From positions 1,939,363 to 2,003,362 of the forward strand of contig NZ_CH902583.1 in NCBI RefSeq assembly GCF_000152965.1: a stretch of DNA of 64,000 nt, written 5' to 3'. This DNA comes from Roseobacter sp. MED193. GTDB lineage: Bacteria; Pseudomonadota; Alphaproteobacteria; Rhodobacterales; Rhodobacteraceae. Each line of letters begins with the position of its first letter. Positions within the stretch are counted from its first letter, which is position 1. Of the stretch, positions 38,702 through 64,000 are shown piece after piece. The notes beneath the pieces are model-generated. The model was not told the DNA's origin. It searched no databases and was given only the letters and a program-made list of their open reading frames with translations. The position numbers and the translations under genes were made by a program.

Positions 38702-39346
38702 ATGGCTAAGCAACTCGATTATCACACCATCCGCGAGATCTTTTCGCGGTTTCAGGCAGCAGAACCAGAGCCCAAGGGCGAACTGGAGCATGTCAATGTC
38801 TACACCCTGGTGGTGGCTGTTGCCCTGTCGGCGCAGGCCACCGATGCCGGGGTGAACAAGGCAACGCGGGCGCTGTTCAAAATCGCCGATACACCGCAAA
38901 AGATGCTGGATCTTGGCATCGAGGGCGTCACCGAACATATCAAGACCATCGGATTGTTCCGACAAAAGGCCAAGAATGTCATCAAACTCAGCCAGATTTT
39001 GGTGGATGACTATGGTGGCGAAGTACCAAACTCCAGAGCCGCGCTGCAATCGCTACCCGGAGTTGGCCGCAAGACCGCCAATGTGGTTTTGAACATGTGG
39101 TGGCATCAGCCCGCCCAGGCCGTCGACACCCATATCTTTCGGGTTGGCAACCGGTCCGGTATTGCACCGGGCAAGGACGTCGATGCGGTGGAACGTGCCG
39201 TCGAGGACAATATCCCTGCTGATTTCCAGCAACATGCACATCATTGGCTGATCCTGCATGGCCGCTATCACTGCAAGGCGCGCAAGCCCCTGTGTGGCAC
39301 CTGCCTGATCCGCGATCTCTGTCAATATGAGGACAAGAACTTATGA
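38702..39346 (+). CDS. nth: Endonuclease III Nth
   Basis: 214 residues. Base-excision glycosylase/AP-lyase for oxidised pyrimidines. The helix-hairpin-helix 'LPGVGRKTANVVL' carries the catalytic Lys; the catalytic Asp is in 'AVDTHIFRVGNR'. The C-terminal [4Fe-4S] motif C-x6-C-x2-C-x5-C is intact. The stop overlaps the start of the sugar kinase gene by 4 bp. Confidence 0.95.
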   Translation: MAKQLDYHTIREIFSRFQAAEPEPKGELEHVNVYTLVVAVALSAQATDAGVNKATRALFKIADTPQKMLDLGIEGVTEHIKTIGLFRQKAKNVIKLSQILVDDYGGEVPNSRAALQSLPGVGRKTANVVLNMWWHQPAQAVDTHIFRVGNRSGIAPGKDVDAVERAVEDNIPADFQQHAHHWLILHGRYHCKARKPLCGTCLIRDLCQYEDKNL

Positions 39347-42712: not shown

Positions 42713-42788
42713 AGGGGTATAGCTCAGTTGGTAGAGCGACGGTCTCCAAAACCGTAGGTCTCGGGTTCGAACCCTGATGCCCCTGCCA
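42713..42788 (+). tRNA. tRNA-Trp (anticodon CCA)
   Basis: A full cloverleaf: acceptor AGGGGTA / TGCCCCT, D arm with AGCTCAGTTGGTAGAGC, anticodon stem ACGGT / ACCGT around the loop CTCCAAA, T arm CGGGTTCGAACCC, discriminator G and encoded CCA. The 3' end is followed directly by an integrase remnant, so this tRNA has served as an integration site. Confidence 0.97.
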
Positions 42789-58815: not shown

Positions 58816-60075
58816 ATGCGCAACCGATTGAAACTGAATGAAAAAGAAGTACGCAACCTGGAATCCACTGAGGGTCGTGACTACCAGGTTTTCGACAGCG
58901 AGATCCGCGGATTTTCCATCCGGGTCTACAAATCCGGCAATAAGGCTTTCACGCTGGATTACCGCATCAACGGCCGGCAGCGGCGCTACAAGCTCGGCGC
59001 CTGGCCCGAATGGACCACGACAGCTGCCCGCGAACGTGCCAAGGAAATCAGGCGGCAAATCGACGAGGGAATCGACCCGCTCTCTGTTCGCGAGACCGAA
59101 CGAGAGGCCCCGAAGGTCAGCGACATGATCGATCGCTATATTGAGGAACACCTGCCCCGGCTCGCGCCGCGCAATGCCTCAGACCAGATTTCAATGCTAC
59201 GGAAGATGGTCGAACCTGAATGGGGCAACCGGCTGGTGACAGAGATCACCAAGCAGGACGTCGAGCGCTTTCTGAACAAGGTCGCCGAGGGGCGGCCGCG
59301 CCCTTCAAAGCTCAAGCCCAACAACCGCGCCCGCAAGCTGCAAGGCTGGAAACCTACACCGATCCGGGCCAACCGGGTCGGGCAACTTCTGCGCAAGATG
59401 TTCAATCTGGCCATCAGCTGGGAATGGCGCGAAGACAACCCTGCGGCTGGGTTCCGCATGCGGATTGAGAACAGCCGCGAACGCTTCCTGAGCCATGAAG
59501 AGTTGGCAAGGCTGGCCACCGCACTGGACCACGCAGAAGATCAGCGCGCGGCGGGGATCATCCGCATGTGCATGCTGACCGGCGCGCGTGTCGGGGAAGT
59601 CCGCACGGCGCGGTTTGAACATTTCAACCTCGACTATGGCAGCTGGGCCAAGCCCGCTGACACGACCAAGCAACGCAAGGTCCACCGCATCCCGATTTCC
59701 GCCGACGTGGCCACGATCGTGCGCCAGCGCAAATTGGTCGTGCCCAAGGGCTCGCCGTGGCTCTTTCCCGGCGACACGCCGGGCCAGCCTGTTAAGGAAA
59801 TCCGCCGGTTTTGGCGCAACATGCAGCGCGAGGCGGAGATCCCCGATGTGCGCATCCACGACCTGCGCCACACATTCGCGTCGCTTTTGGTCAGCGGTGG
59901 CGCCTCGCTCGAGATGGTCGGGCGTCTGCTGGGCCACTCGCAGATGTCGACCACACAGCGCTACGCCCATTTCATGGACTCGCCCTTGCGCGCTGGCGTC
60001 GATGCTGTGGCCCAGGCCTTTCGGCCGCGCCCCGTCCTTGTGCACGATACGAGGACCGATCGTGCTGCAAGCTGA
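58816..60075 (+). CDS. P4-type tyrosine recombinase (integrase)
   Basis: 419 residues, GAAGGAGG-like site upstream. The N-terminal DUF4102 arm-binding domain ('DYQVFDSEIRGFSIRVYKSG') and a SAM-like core-binding domain (about residues 98-215) are followed by the catalytic domain: Arg258 in 'GARVGEVRT', Lys in 'TTKQRKVHRIPI', His348 and Arg351 in 'HDLRHTFAS', His374 in 'LGHSQMSTTQ' and nucleophile Tyr383. All residues are intact, so it is probably active. It faces the accessory module to the right and is convergent with the next gene (5-bp gap). Confidence 0.94.
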   Translation: MRNRLKLNEKEVRNLESTEGRDYQVFDSEIRGFSIRVYKSGNKAFTLDYRINGRQRRYKLGAWPEWTTTAARERAKEIRRQIDEGIDPLSVRETEREAPKVSDMIDRYIEEHLPRLAPRNASDQISMLRKMVEPEWGNRLVTEITKQDVERFLNKVAEGRPRPSKLKPNNRARKLQGWKPTPIRANRVGQLLRKMFNLAISWEWREDNPAAGFRMRIENSRERFLSHEELARLATALDHAEDQRAAGIIRMCMLTGARVGEVRTARFEHFNLDYGSWAKPADTTKQRKVHRIPISADVATIVRQRKLVVPKGSPWLFPGDTPGQPVKEIRRFWRNMQREAEIPDVRIHDLRHTFASLLVSGGASLEMVGRLLGHSQMSTTQRYAHFMDSPLRAGVDAVAQAFRPRPVLVHDTRTDRAAS

Positions 60076-62187: not shown

Positions 62188-62439
62188 ATGTCTGATCAGC
62201 ACATTTCACCGCCGACGCGCCCTGCGCCCTTGTTGTCGGAAATGTACACACGCCAGCAGCTGGCCGTGGAGCTTGGCTTCACCTGCGACACGCTCTGCCG
62301 CTGGGAAGCCCGCCAAATTGGCCCGCCCTGCACGCGCATTGGGAGACGGGTCTTTTATCGTCGTGACGCGGTTGAGGCCTGGCTACTTGAACAGGAAAAT
62401 ACACGCGTCACTCGCGGGTGCCGGGGGGCACGCAGATGA
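62188..62439 (+). CDS. AlpA/excisionase-type helix-turn-helix protein
   Basis: 83 residues. 'YTRQQLAVELGFTCDTLCRWEARQIGPPCTRIGRRVFYRRDAVEAWL' region is the winged MerR-like fold of AlpA/Xis proteins (about residues 20-67). Such proteins direct excision by the cognate integrase or activate it. GGAGA lies 7 bp before the ATG, and the stop overlaps the next gene by 4 bp. Confidence 0.85.
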   Translation: MSDQHISPPTRPAPLLSEMYTRQQLAVELGFTCDTLCRWEARQIGPPCTRIGRRVFYRRDAVEAWLLEQENTRVTRGCRGARR

Positions 62440-62705
62440 GCATTCCCATGCCCTTCCGCAAGCCCAGCGCCCGGGACCGCGTCCGCCAGGACTGGATCGA
62501 AGAACGCCGGCGCGAGGCGCGCATGGTGATCGCTGATGTGGCGCACCATTCTGATTATCTGGTGCGGCTGGCCTGCAATGTGCTGGTGCAACATGGTGAG
62601 ACCTTCGAGGAGCGCGAAGACGCGCGCATTCTGCTGGTCATCCTAGATGCCAAGACGCCTGGTCGGTTGCCTGCACCCTCCCCAGACCGGGAGGGCCGCT
62701 CATGA
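62436..62705 (+). CDS. Hypothetical phage/island protein
   Basis: 89 residues from ATG 62436 (ATGA overlap with the HTH gene). Highly charged N-terminus ('RKPSARDRVRQDWIEERRREAR') and a helical middle ('VAHHSDYLVRLACNVLVQHG'). No family is recognised. Its stop overlaps the VRR-NUC gene (ATGA). Confidence 0.6.
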   Translation: MSIPMPFRKPSARDRVRQDWIEERRREARMVIADVAHHSDYLVRLACNVLVQHGETFEEREDARILLVILDAKTPGRLPAPSPDREGRS

Positions 62706-63097
62706 AACGCCGCGGCACACCTGAAGCAGATCTGCAGCGCGCTGTCGTGACCGCGCTGCGCTTTGCGCTCCCCAAGGGCGCCATCATCCATCACTGCGCC
62801 AATGAGGTCACCGAAGCCGGCCCGCGTGGGGCCAAGCGGCAAGCCATCCTCGTTGGCATGGGTGTCCATCCCGGATTTGCCGATCTGATCATTCTCTGCG
62901 AGGGCAAGGCGCTCTTCCTCGAGCTGAAATCCCTCAAGGGGCGGCTCAGCCCAGCGCAGGAGGCGTTTCGGGACGCCGTGACGGCGCAGGGCTTTGGCTG
63001 GGCGCTGGTGCGTTCACTTGATGATGCGCTGGGCGCCCTCGCCGATTATGGCTTTACGACGCGCGTCGCCCCTCCAACCGGGAGGATCGCCCCATGA
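62702..63097 (+). CDS. VRR-NUC domain nuclease
   Basis: 131 residues. The nuclease core is 'GVHPGFADLIILCEGKALFLELKSLKGRLSPAQEAF' region (about residues 56-92), with the GxxD-x(n)-ExK pattern of PD-(D/E)XK enzymes (Asp in 'FADLI', Glu and Lys in 'LELKS'). Phage members of this family act as Holliday-junction or structure-specific endonucleases. It is coupled to the neighbours on both sides by ATGA overlaps. Confidence 0.88.
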   Translation: MKRRGTPEADLQRAVVTALRFALPKGAIIHHCANEVTEAGPRGAKRQAILVGMGVHPGFADLIILCEGKALFLELKSLKGRLSPAQEAFRDAVTAQGFGWALVRSLDDALGALADYGFTTRVAPPTGRIAP

Positions 63098-64000
63098 GCC
63101 ATGCCGCCACAAACTGGGCCATCCAGCAGCGCGGGCTGAAGCCCACGACCAAAATCGTGCTTTGGCATCTGTGTGACCGGTTCAACCCGGACTTCGGGTG
63201 TTTTCCGACGCAAGAGCGGCTCGCACATGATTGTGAAATCGGGCGCGCCACATTGAACCGCCATCTCGATGAGCTGGAGGCCCGCCGGTTGATCAAGCGC
63301 GTGCGCATCGTCGACACTAAAACCGGCCAGCAGCGGCCCACACGGTATTTGTTGGGGTTCGAGTTCGACGATGGAAATGGTGCCCGACCGTCAAGCGCAC
63401 CCCCTGATGGGAACACCGCTACGGGTGCAGGTGACACAGCCCCGCCCCGCCGCCCTGAGGACGCGTCCTCCAAATCGCAAAACACCGCAAAAACCCCGTG
63501 TCTTGATTTGGGACACGGGCAAGACGCTGAAACGTCCTATGGCGACGAGGGTAAAACACTGTCAGTCCCTGCCACGCCATGTCCCAAAACAGGACACGGG
63601 CCCGTGTCTCATTTTGGGCAAAACCCGTGTCTCAAAAATGGCGATTCCCGTGTCTCAAAATGGGACACTAACCCTGTAAGGGAACCTTTAAGTAAACCAG
63701 TAAAGGAGGAGGAGGACGCGCGAGCGCGCGAAACTGCATTTGATGTTTTTTTTGGAAAGCTGCTCACGGCGCTGGGCTTCGATCCAGACGGGCCCCTGCC
63801 CGGCTGGTGGCAAGGCAGGCCGCCTCGAGAACATGTGTGGCGATGGATTGATGATCTCGGGCTGATCGAGGTTGAAATCCTCGAGGCGGCTGAGGCGTCT
63901 CGGCAGGAGCATCCCGAGCCTCCCGACGGGCCCAAGGCGCTGGATCGGATCATGCAGCGGGCCGCCCAGCGCAAGGCGCAGACCAAAGCGGTTTCGGATA
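63094..64000 (+). CDS. Replication-initiator-like helix-turn-helix protein (C-terminus beyond right edge)
   Basis: At least 302 residues, ATG 63094 overlapping the VRR-NUC stop; the frame is open to the window end. Residues 1-90 form a winged helix ('TTKIVLWHLCDRFNPDFGCFPTQ', then 'DCEIGRATLNRHLDELEARRLI') like DnaA-box/iteron-binding initiators and phage regulators. A low-complexity linker (about residues 95-205) is encoded by DNA packed with repeats, and a second ordered part starts near residue 210 ('FDVFFGKLLTALGF'). The layout is that of phage replication initiators that bind iterons inside their own gene. Confidence 0.75.
   Translation, partial: MSHAATNWAIQQRGLKPTTKIVLWHLCDRFNPDFGCFPTQERLAHDCEIGRATLNRHLDELEARRLIKRVRIVDTKTGQQRPTRYLLGFEFDDGNGARPSSAPPDGNTATGAGDTAPPRRPEDASSKSQNTAKTPCLDLGHGQDAETSYGDEGKTLSVPATPCPKTGHGPVSHFGQNPCLKNGDSRVSKWDTNPVREPLSKPVKEEEDARARETAFDVFFGKLLTALGFDPDGPLPGWWQGRPPREHVWRWIDDLGLIEVEILEAAEASRQEHPEPPDGPKALDRIMQRAAQRKAQTKAVSD
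63495..63668. repeat. Iteron-like repeats inside the initiator-like gene
   Basis: CCCGTGTCTCA recurs at 63601, 63624 and 63647, exactly 23 bp apart. A 16-bp perfect palindrome GACACGGGCCCGTGTC spans 63593-63608, and an 8-bp inverted repeat CCCGTGTC / GACACGGG lies at 63495-63519. The three copies fall in three different reading frames, so they are conserved as DNA and not as a peptide repeat. Confidence 0.75.

Follow-up and report, generated by a model that had tools for sequence, protein, structure and literature searches.

A Probable Lambda-Type Replication Origin inside the O-Like Initiator Gene of a Roseobacter Prophage and Its Relatives

In phage lambda, the replication origin lies inside the initiator gene O: in the available parts of three papers, ori-lambda is described as four inverted-repeat iterons that are bound by O dimers and followed by ∼40 bp of AT-rich DNA (PMC7466680, PMC6022878, PMC5043065). 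The lambda record annotates these four iterons inside O, at 39034 to 39118. Plasmid iterons bind Rep monomers and usually sit outside the gene. Iteron plasmids, as the available portion of one paper has it (PMC5043065), carry directly repeated initiator sites that adjoin weak DNA, and so does the locus described here.

We analyzed a 64,000-nucleotide stretch of the Roseobacter sp. MED193 genome (the window), in which a repeat array lies inside the gene for an O-like replication initiator. The repeats are very probably the iterons of a prophage's own intragenic lambda-type origin, bound by the N-terminal winged helix of the protein encoded around them, with C-terminal domains that would be exchangeable. 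As in lambda O, 18- to 19-bp dyads are arrayed mid-gene in 20- to 24-bp steps, ∼40 bp of weak DNA follows, and the next gene overlaps by a few bases. Unlike in lambda O, the winged helix is of the Pfam HTH_36 type rather than Phage_rep_O (PF04492), and the iteron words are different; there are usually five units (by a lax score), at least one of them distal, and a conserved TAACC-TGTAAG segment is present. No recognizable lambda P is found next door, where the neighboring gene encodes a 240-amino-acid protein that matches only PHROG 9306 (function not assigned) and has no Pfam match. On this comparison, the origin would be best filed with the already known ori-lambda kind, its initiator group being Pfam-distinct. 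The new parts are the assignment of an origin to a widespread group and the classes of initiator-origin specificity.

Among phages, RcHotPocket and RcBaka (Rhodobacter phages of cluster RcC), Labrenzia phage vB_LagS-V1, and Rhizobium phage PPF1 have a homologous N-terminal domain and, in the corresponding region of the gene, recurring words; in all these phage records, the genes are named helix-turn-helix proteins. vB_LagS-V1 shares residues R51, A52, and R56 and the same GTGTCTCA iterons with the window gene, and PPF1 has a 23-bp array, as does the window gene; the proteins of both phages are longer and match the query over its N-terminal part only. The RcC phages have ACTCCG words without the 23-bp triple. 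In titles and the openings of abstracts, with subscription journals largely outside the coverage, we found no earlier description of iterons in this initiator group, and the available main text of a paper on Rhodobacter capsulatus phages (PMC8601537) contains neither "iteron" nor "origin of replication." From sequence, we locate a likely origin for a large, mostly Rhodobacterales group of prophages and phages; the phage records examined call their initiators nothing more than helix-turn-helix proteins. The result also supplies origin candidates in an ecologically interesting group of bacteria.

The initiator gene and its repeat array

The O-like initiator gene begins at 63094 on the plus strand and is cut by the window end at 64000; in the genome, it extends to the equivalent of 64209 and encodes 371 amino acids. 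Its assignment is based on PHROG 345, other O-like families, and Pfam HTH_36. The match to PHROG 345 ("replication initiation O-like") covers residues 1 to 228 at 4e-23 (6.8e-23 with the full protein), and several sister families match too. Lambda O matches PHROG 345, 391, and 678, and the window protein matches the same three; we link the protein to lambda O because of these shared profiles. Pfam Phage_rep_O, which lambda O matches at 5.7e-36, was not matched by the window protein or its homologue L016, both of which match HTH_36 instead, and a profile comparison with the single lambda O sequence found no relation. No named family was found in Pfam for the C-terminal domain. No plasmid Rep family reached an E value of 0.1 for the window protein; homologues L129 and L147 gave weak, sub-cutoff matches to the RepC N-terminal domain. 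A protein search found no second copy of the initiator N-terminal domain in the host genome.

An AlphaFold2 model of L016, a 93% identical homologue, predicts a winged helix at residues 1 to 90, confident except at residues 31 to 35, and a helical C-terminal region from about residue 204; the overall pTM is 0.33. Residues 94 to 193 have pLDDT values of <50 and are predicted to be disordered, and it is within this predicted disordered stretch that the iterons are encoded. The same model places the predicted recognition helix at codons 51 to 63 (63244 to 63282, plus strand), which include the residues that track iteron class (R51, A52, and R56 in the window protein). A profile search of solved structures returned only a MarR-type regulator (E value, 0.0095). 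With Foldseek, nothing in the PDB scored at an E value of ≤0.001, the best matches being MarR-type and DnaD winged helices; among viral models, 38 matches at ≤0.001 were to phage O-like or helix-turn-helix proteins, with low whole-length TM-scores.

Three exact copies of CCCGTGTCTCA start at 63601, 63624, and 63647, spaced 23 bp apart, and no others occur in the 64-kb window. Their gene offsets are 0, 2, and 1, so each copy lies in a different reading frame and all three frames are used, as the first-pass annotation had reported. When up to two mismatches are allowed, the window shows no excess of the word (18 observed versus 18.7 expected). A count of three repeats is too low; the copies are the left halves of longer dyads. 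We placed five 19-bp dyad iterons, A to E, between 63498 and 63668, that is, 405 to 575 bp inside the initiator gene; they are assigned to no strand. Both halves are present in the distal unit A (63498 to 63516; GTGTCTTGATTTGGGACAC) and in unit B (63579 to 63597; ATGTCCCAAAACAGGACAC), 81 bp further on. Unit C (63604 to 63622; GTGTCTCATTTTGGGCAAA), 25 bp after B, and unit D (63627 to 63645; GTGTCTCAAAAATGGCGAT), 23 bp after C, combine a strong left half with a weak right half, and unit E (63650 to 63668; GTGTCTCAAAATGGGACAC), 23 bp after D, is a near-perfect dyad. With up to two mismatches, the dyad consensus is found at three places only in the 4.67-Mb host genome, namely, units A, B, and E; a backwards control pattern gave one match. 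The 16-bp palindrome GACACGGGCCCGTGTC (63593 to 63608, no strand), also pointed out in the first pass, is real but is a by-product of the junction between B and C; it is exact in just 6 of 170 homologous genes and is not conserved.

Conservation of the array and constraint on its DNA

To obtain a null expectation, we reshuffled synonymous codons within the gene, keeping the protein and codon usage, and scored triple repeats with a frame-shifting spacing of 12 to 40. The triple of the window gene matches at 11 of 11 columns, and none of 1,000 shuffles was as good (best shuffle, 9). Per 1,000 shuffles, 0 were as good for LagS-V1, 2 for PPF1, 15 for lambda, 980 for RcHotPocket, and 978 for RcBaka; the test is blind for the arrays of the last two phages and weak for lambda. 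It replaced a half-site test (8 bases, one mismatch, anywhere in the gene) that proved too lax: 49 of 2,000 shuffles of the window gene matched the real count, and at least one shuffle equalled the real gene in 51 of 120 genes (100 shuffles per gene; 2,000 for the window gene). With exact words, the half-site count of the window gene was matched by 0 of 2,000 shuffles.

Two protein searches of GTDB genomes and IMG/VR contigs, the first contributing the best 80 of 131, gave 140 loci. With L141 and L143 (partial) excluded, 138 loci and the window make up 121 distinct genes; some search peptides overlap the array-coding region, which biases this set mildly toward array-bearing genes. A dyad lies directly 5′ of a TAACC-TGTAAG-like segment in 120 of the 121 genes by pattern and, on reading, in L081 too. 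Three more searches, seeded with N-terminal domains or other relatives, enlarged the pool to 170 distinct genes. No gene fitting the start pattern was present at 14 loci; L001, L003, L004, and lambda (L145) had been excluded in advance.

The first-pass annotation had proposed looking for the same repeats in relatives, and their spacing is indeed kept: the best frame-shifting triple is spaced 23 bp in 165 of the 170 genes, although three of the 165 (L175, L224, and L227) match at just 6 of 10 columns. The other five are RcHotPocket and RcBaka (L146 and L148), which by reading have two units 24 bp apart; L222 and L225, which by reading have dyads with two units only at 23 bp; and L223. A strict TAACC[CT]TGTAAG follows the array in 156 of 170 genes and a looser form in 164. 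When units were counted laxly (≥11 of 19 to the class consensus), the mode was five, seen in 87 of 166 genes; 283 of the 1,093 hits lie outside the array region.

L411 from 2501 (also L410 from 1425) is an initiator homologue whose middle is missing, iterons and unwinding segment included, through either a natural deletion or an assembly fault. The more distant L386, L393, and L394 (from 2501) carry different recurring words within this gene (TTTGCCG, ACACCGGACAAAA, and CCGTGTCAGAGAGTCAC), in 23-bp triples in L386 and L393 and in a 17-bp triple in L394. These three sequences suggest that the architecture is longer-lived than the iteron sequence itself.

Constraint on the DNA was also assessed with synonymous codons. 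In 4,889 gene pairs with <68% protein identity (120 genes), we asked, in steps of 9 codons, how far the share of identical codons at conserved residues exceeds what the gene as a whole predicts for that amino acid. This excess is positive at codons ∼157 to 213 (to 63732), with a maximum of 0.30; this stretch corresponds to units B to E and the following segment. Elsewhere, it ranges from −0.23 to +0.08, except for 0.13 at codons 133 to 141, which correspond to unit A. Conservation past the array could in part stem from recombination or protein constraint.

By nearest-neighbor stability, the weakest 40-mer anywhere in the gene lies at 63666 to 63705 (no strand) and is a candidate DNA unwinding element. 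Across the family, the 40 bp after the array have a median AT content of 60% (range, 45 to 65) versus 37% gene-wide, and the least stable 40-mer starts at −20 to +15 of a GTAAG-like word in 158 of 169 genes, L277 being unscorable. In lambda O, the same analysis places it at 39122, just after the annotated iterons. Just past the unwinding segment of the window gene, at 63700 to 63732, is a purine run, AAAGGAGGAGGAGGA, followed by GCGCGAGCGCGC; many of the homologues examined share both.

The conserved 23-bp array, the peak of synonymous conservation, the adjoining weak duplex, and the lambda-like layout lend good support to both first-pass suggestions, selection on the DNA and an internal origin in the initiator gene.

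Iteron classes, recognition-helix residues, and the two protein domains

The iterons within one gene share a sequence type, and four sequence classes are found overall (TGTC-TCA, TGTC-CGR, TCTC-CGR, and TGTC-CAG). Our class tables cover the 170 genes and use the commonest half-site word of each (L149 has none); the word pattern admits only G or C as the third base and so assigns RcHotPocket and RcBaka words other than their ACTCCG repeats. R51 occurs with TGTC in 149 of 149 genes and I, V, or P51 with TCTC in 19 of 20. A52 plus R56 goes with TCA (32 of 32), S52 with CG after the first base (131 of 132, the one miss being TGG), and A52 plus V or T56 with CAG (5 of 5). When one unit per gene was used instead, two exceptions appeared: L175 (RSE, with TCA in a hybrid unit) and one RSD gene with CAA. 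The remaining words of L175 are C-type, and its class label was set to C by hand for the tree and pair comparisons.

This rule was fixed before new genes were fetched. Among 86 new loci, 38 were analyzed, the other 48 being genes of the first set; the test set comprised 27 new distinct genes, and the units of 11 were fully read. Genes with other residues fall outside the rule and were left unscored, as were L411 (array lost) and L426 (truncated). R51 was accompanied by TGTC in all 12 readable genes (L375, L391, L394, L396, L397, L402 to L407, and L409). V51 was accompanied by TCTC in none of three (L416, L417, and L418), which have a different helix type. Alanine with R56 gave TCA in L409 (two of its three units) and not in L419 (E51), and alanine with V or T56 gave CAG in 6 of 6 genes (L402 to L407). 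Serine with any residue at 56 gave CGR in L396 and L397 and not in L375 (CAA/CAG), L391 (CCA), or L423 and L424 (both K51); L420 (K51) has no site recognized in this test. Given this mixed outcome, the rule is local to this part of the family. Judged by these words, residue 56 weighs more than in the rule as first stated.

We compared the evolution of the two domains in quick trees with many unresolved forks, for which the N-terminal rows were aligned and the recognition-helix columns left out. Iteron class changes 6 times on the N-terminal tree of 167 rows. For the same 146 rows, there are 3 changes on the N-terminal tree versus 28 on the C-terminal tree. At least 10 of these 28 (class C) are forced by well-supported branches, and starred branches of the N-terminal trees force just one change per class. 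Because class changes on the N-terminal tree are few and most forks are unresolved, the residue association is based on few independent events. The C-terminal coding used here begins ∼60 bp after unit E, and the recognition helix stops ∼215 bp short of unit A and ∼300 bp short of unit B. The C-terminal coding is thus nearer the array, and closeness alone cannot explain which half the array follows.

The C termini are mosaic with respect to class. In 221 gene pairs of different classes, identity between the C-terminal domains exceeds 80% and reaches 95%; between N-terminal domains of different classes, it is 83% at most. Between L070 (class C) and L136 (class A), identity is 95% at the C terminus and 68% at the N terminus, and DNA identity climbs around the unwinding segment. 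These sequences suggest that the conserved segment may serve phages as a place of recombination and that separated helix-iteron pairs would be lost.

On balance, we lean toward a matching code between initiator and origin. Residue 51 would set the third half-site base (R for TGTC; I, V, or P for TCTC), and residues 52 and 56 would set bases 6 to 8 (A..R for TCA, S..D/E for CGR, and A..V/T for CAG); C-terminal effector domains would be traded near the unwinding segment, with the helix-iteron pair locked. If true, such a code would sort prophages that share a host into replication-compatibility groups. The family offers 169 natural initiator-origin pairs, many of them closely related, in four sequence classes, which makes the coevolution of initiator and origin within one gene directly testable on natural variants alone.

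Proposed origin function and the prophage

We propose that, once the prophage has been induced and excised, the 19-bp dyads (a cluster of four at steps of 25, 23, and 23 bp and one distal unit) would be bound by the N-terminal winged helix of the initiator in dimeric form. The bound initiator would then strain and open the adjoining weak-duplex segment at 63666 to 63705, and the C-terminal domain would bring in the host replicative helicase, either directly or via a partner. The gene may tolerate the iterons because the linker that they encode is disordered. C-terminal domains would be swapped between phages by switching near the unwinding segment, and the winged helix and iterons would move as a matched pair.

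Alternatively, the dyads could be operators, at which the winged-helix protein or some other repressor would regulate transcription of the later operon genes; the N-terminal domain does weakly resemble MarR-type regulators in sequence and fold. We consider this improbable, since the sites lie 405 to 575 bp inside the gene, the gene's least stable segment adjoins the array in 158 of 169 genes, the matched families are named replication initiators, and lambda shares the layout. Autoregulation may nonetheless accompany origin function. A centromere or partition function for the array, in a plasmid-like prophage, is more improbable still; a downstream gene with a ParB-like part fused to a methyltransferase would fit this role, but the integrase, together with genes for head, packaging, and tail, is in keeping with an integrated phage, and the iteron class of each array goes with the helix encoded by its own gene. 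Repeats produced by chance or at the protein level, through coding constraint in the linker, are hardly credible even though some encoded peptides recur (e.g., PCxxxGHG), because the three copies in three frames encode different peptides, none of the 1,000 synonymous shuffles matches the triple, synonymous sites show an excess of conservation, the linker is predicted to be disordered, and the 23-bp spacing is kept across homologues.

The lambda-type origin that we favor would serve a phage. A tyrosine integrase gene (58816 to 60075, plus strand; Pfam and PHROG) lies near the left prophage end. It is followed by a gene for a small HTH_17-like protein of the excisionase or regulator type (62188 to 62439, plus strand; just below the Pfam cutoff, and PHROG) and a VRR-NUC-like nuclease gene (62702 to 63097, plus strand; just below the Pfam cutoff), which is directly upstream of the initiator gene and overlaps it start to stop. 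A gene for 222 amino acids with no assigned function and one for a WYL-domain regulator are also found upstream. Downstream in the genome are genes for terminase, portal, head maturation protease, major head protein, tape measure, and tail lysozyme hub proteins. With these head, packaging, and tail genes, the element is a lambda-like prophage, and the window holds its left part. The first-pass annotation had spoken of a mobile module that might replicate after excision: the element is a prophage rather than a bare island, so replication after excision would be ordinary phage replication. No helicase loader was recognized beside the initiator gene with PHROG or Pfam. We found no attachment sites, the longest words common to both flanks being an unconvincing 13 to 15 bp, and no tRNA at the prophage ends; tRNAs were detected at window position 42713 and inside the prophage region.

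The latter region holds several further genes. Two tRNA genes (Leu taa and Met cat) lie on the minus strand between head and tail genes (L003, 9203 to 9368), and one phage gene fuses a ParB-like domain to a DNA methyltransferase (L002, 12652 to 13914). Downstream in the same prophage, two pairs of peptidase S24 (UmuD-like) and Y-family polymerase (UmuC-like) genes lie in opposite orientations within ∼5 kb (L002, 7891 to 9590 and 10668 to 12396). In or adjoining the prophage are a HigB-like toxin gene followed by a small gene without a Pfam match (L002, 9724 to 10432), a Phd/YefM-PIN pair (L003, 183 to 826), and a ParE-Phd/YefM pair (L004, 508 to 1099). BREX-type defense genes (BrxL, PglZ, PglX, and BrxC) occupy the minus strand, starting ∼5.5 kb past the last identified phage gene (L004, 7740 to 18953).
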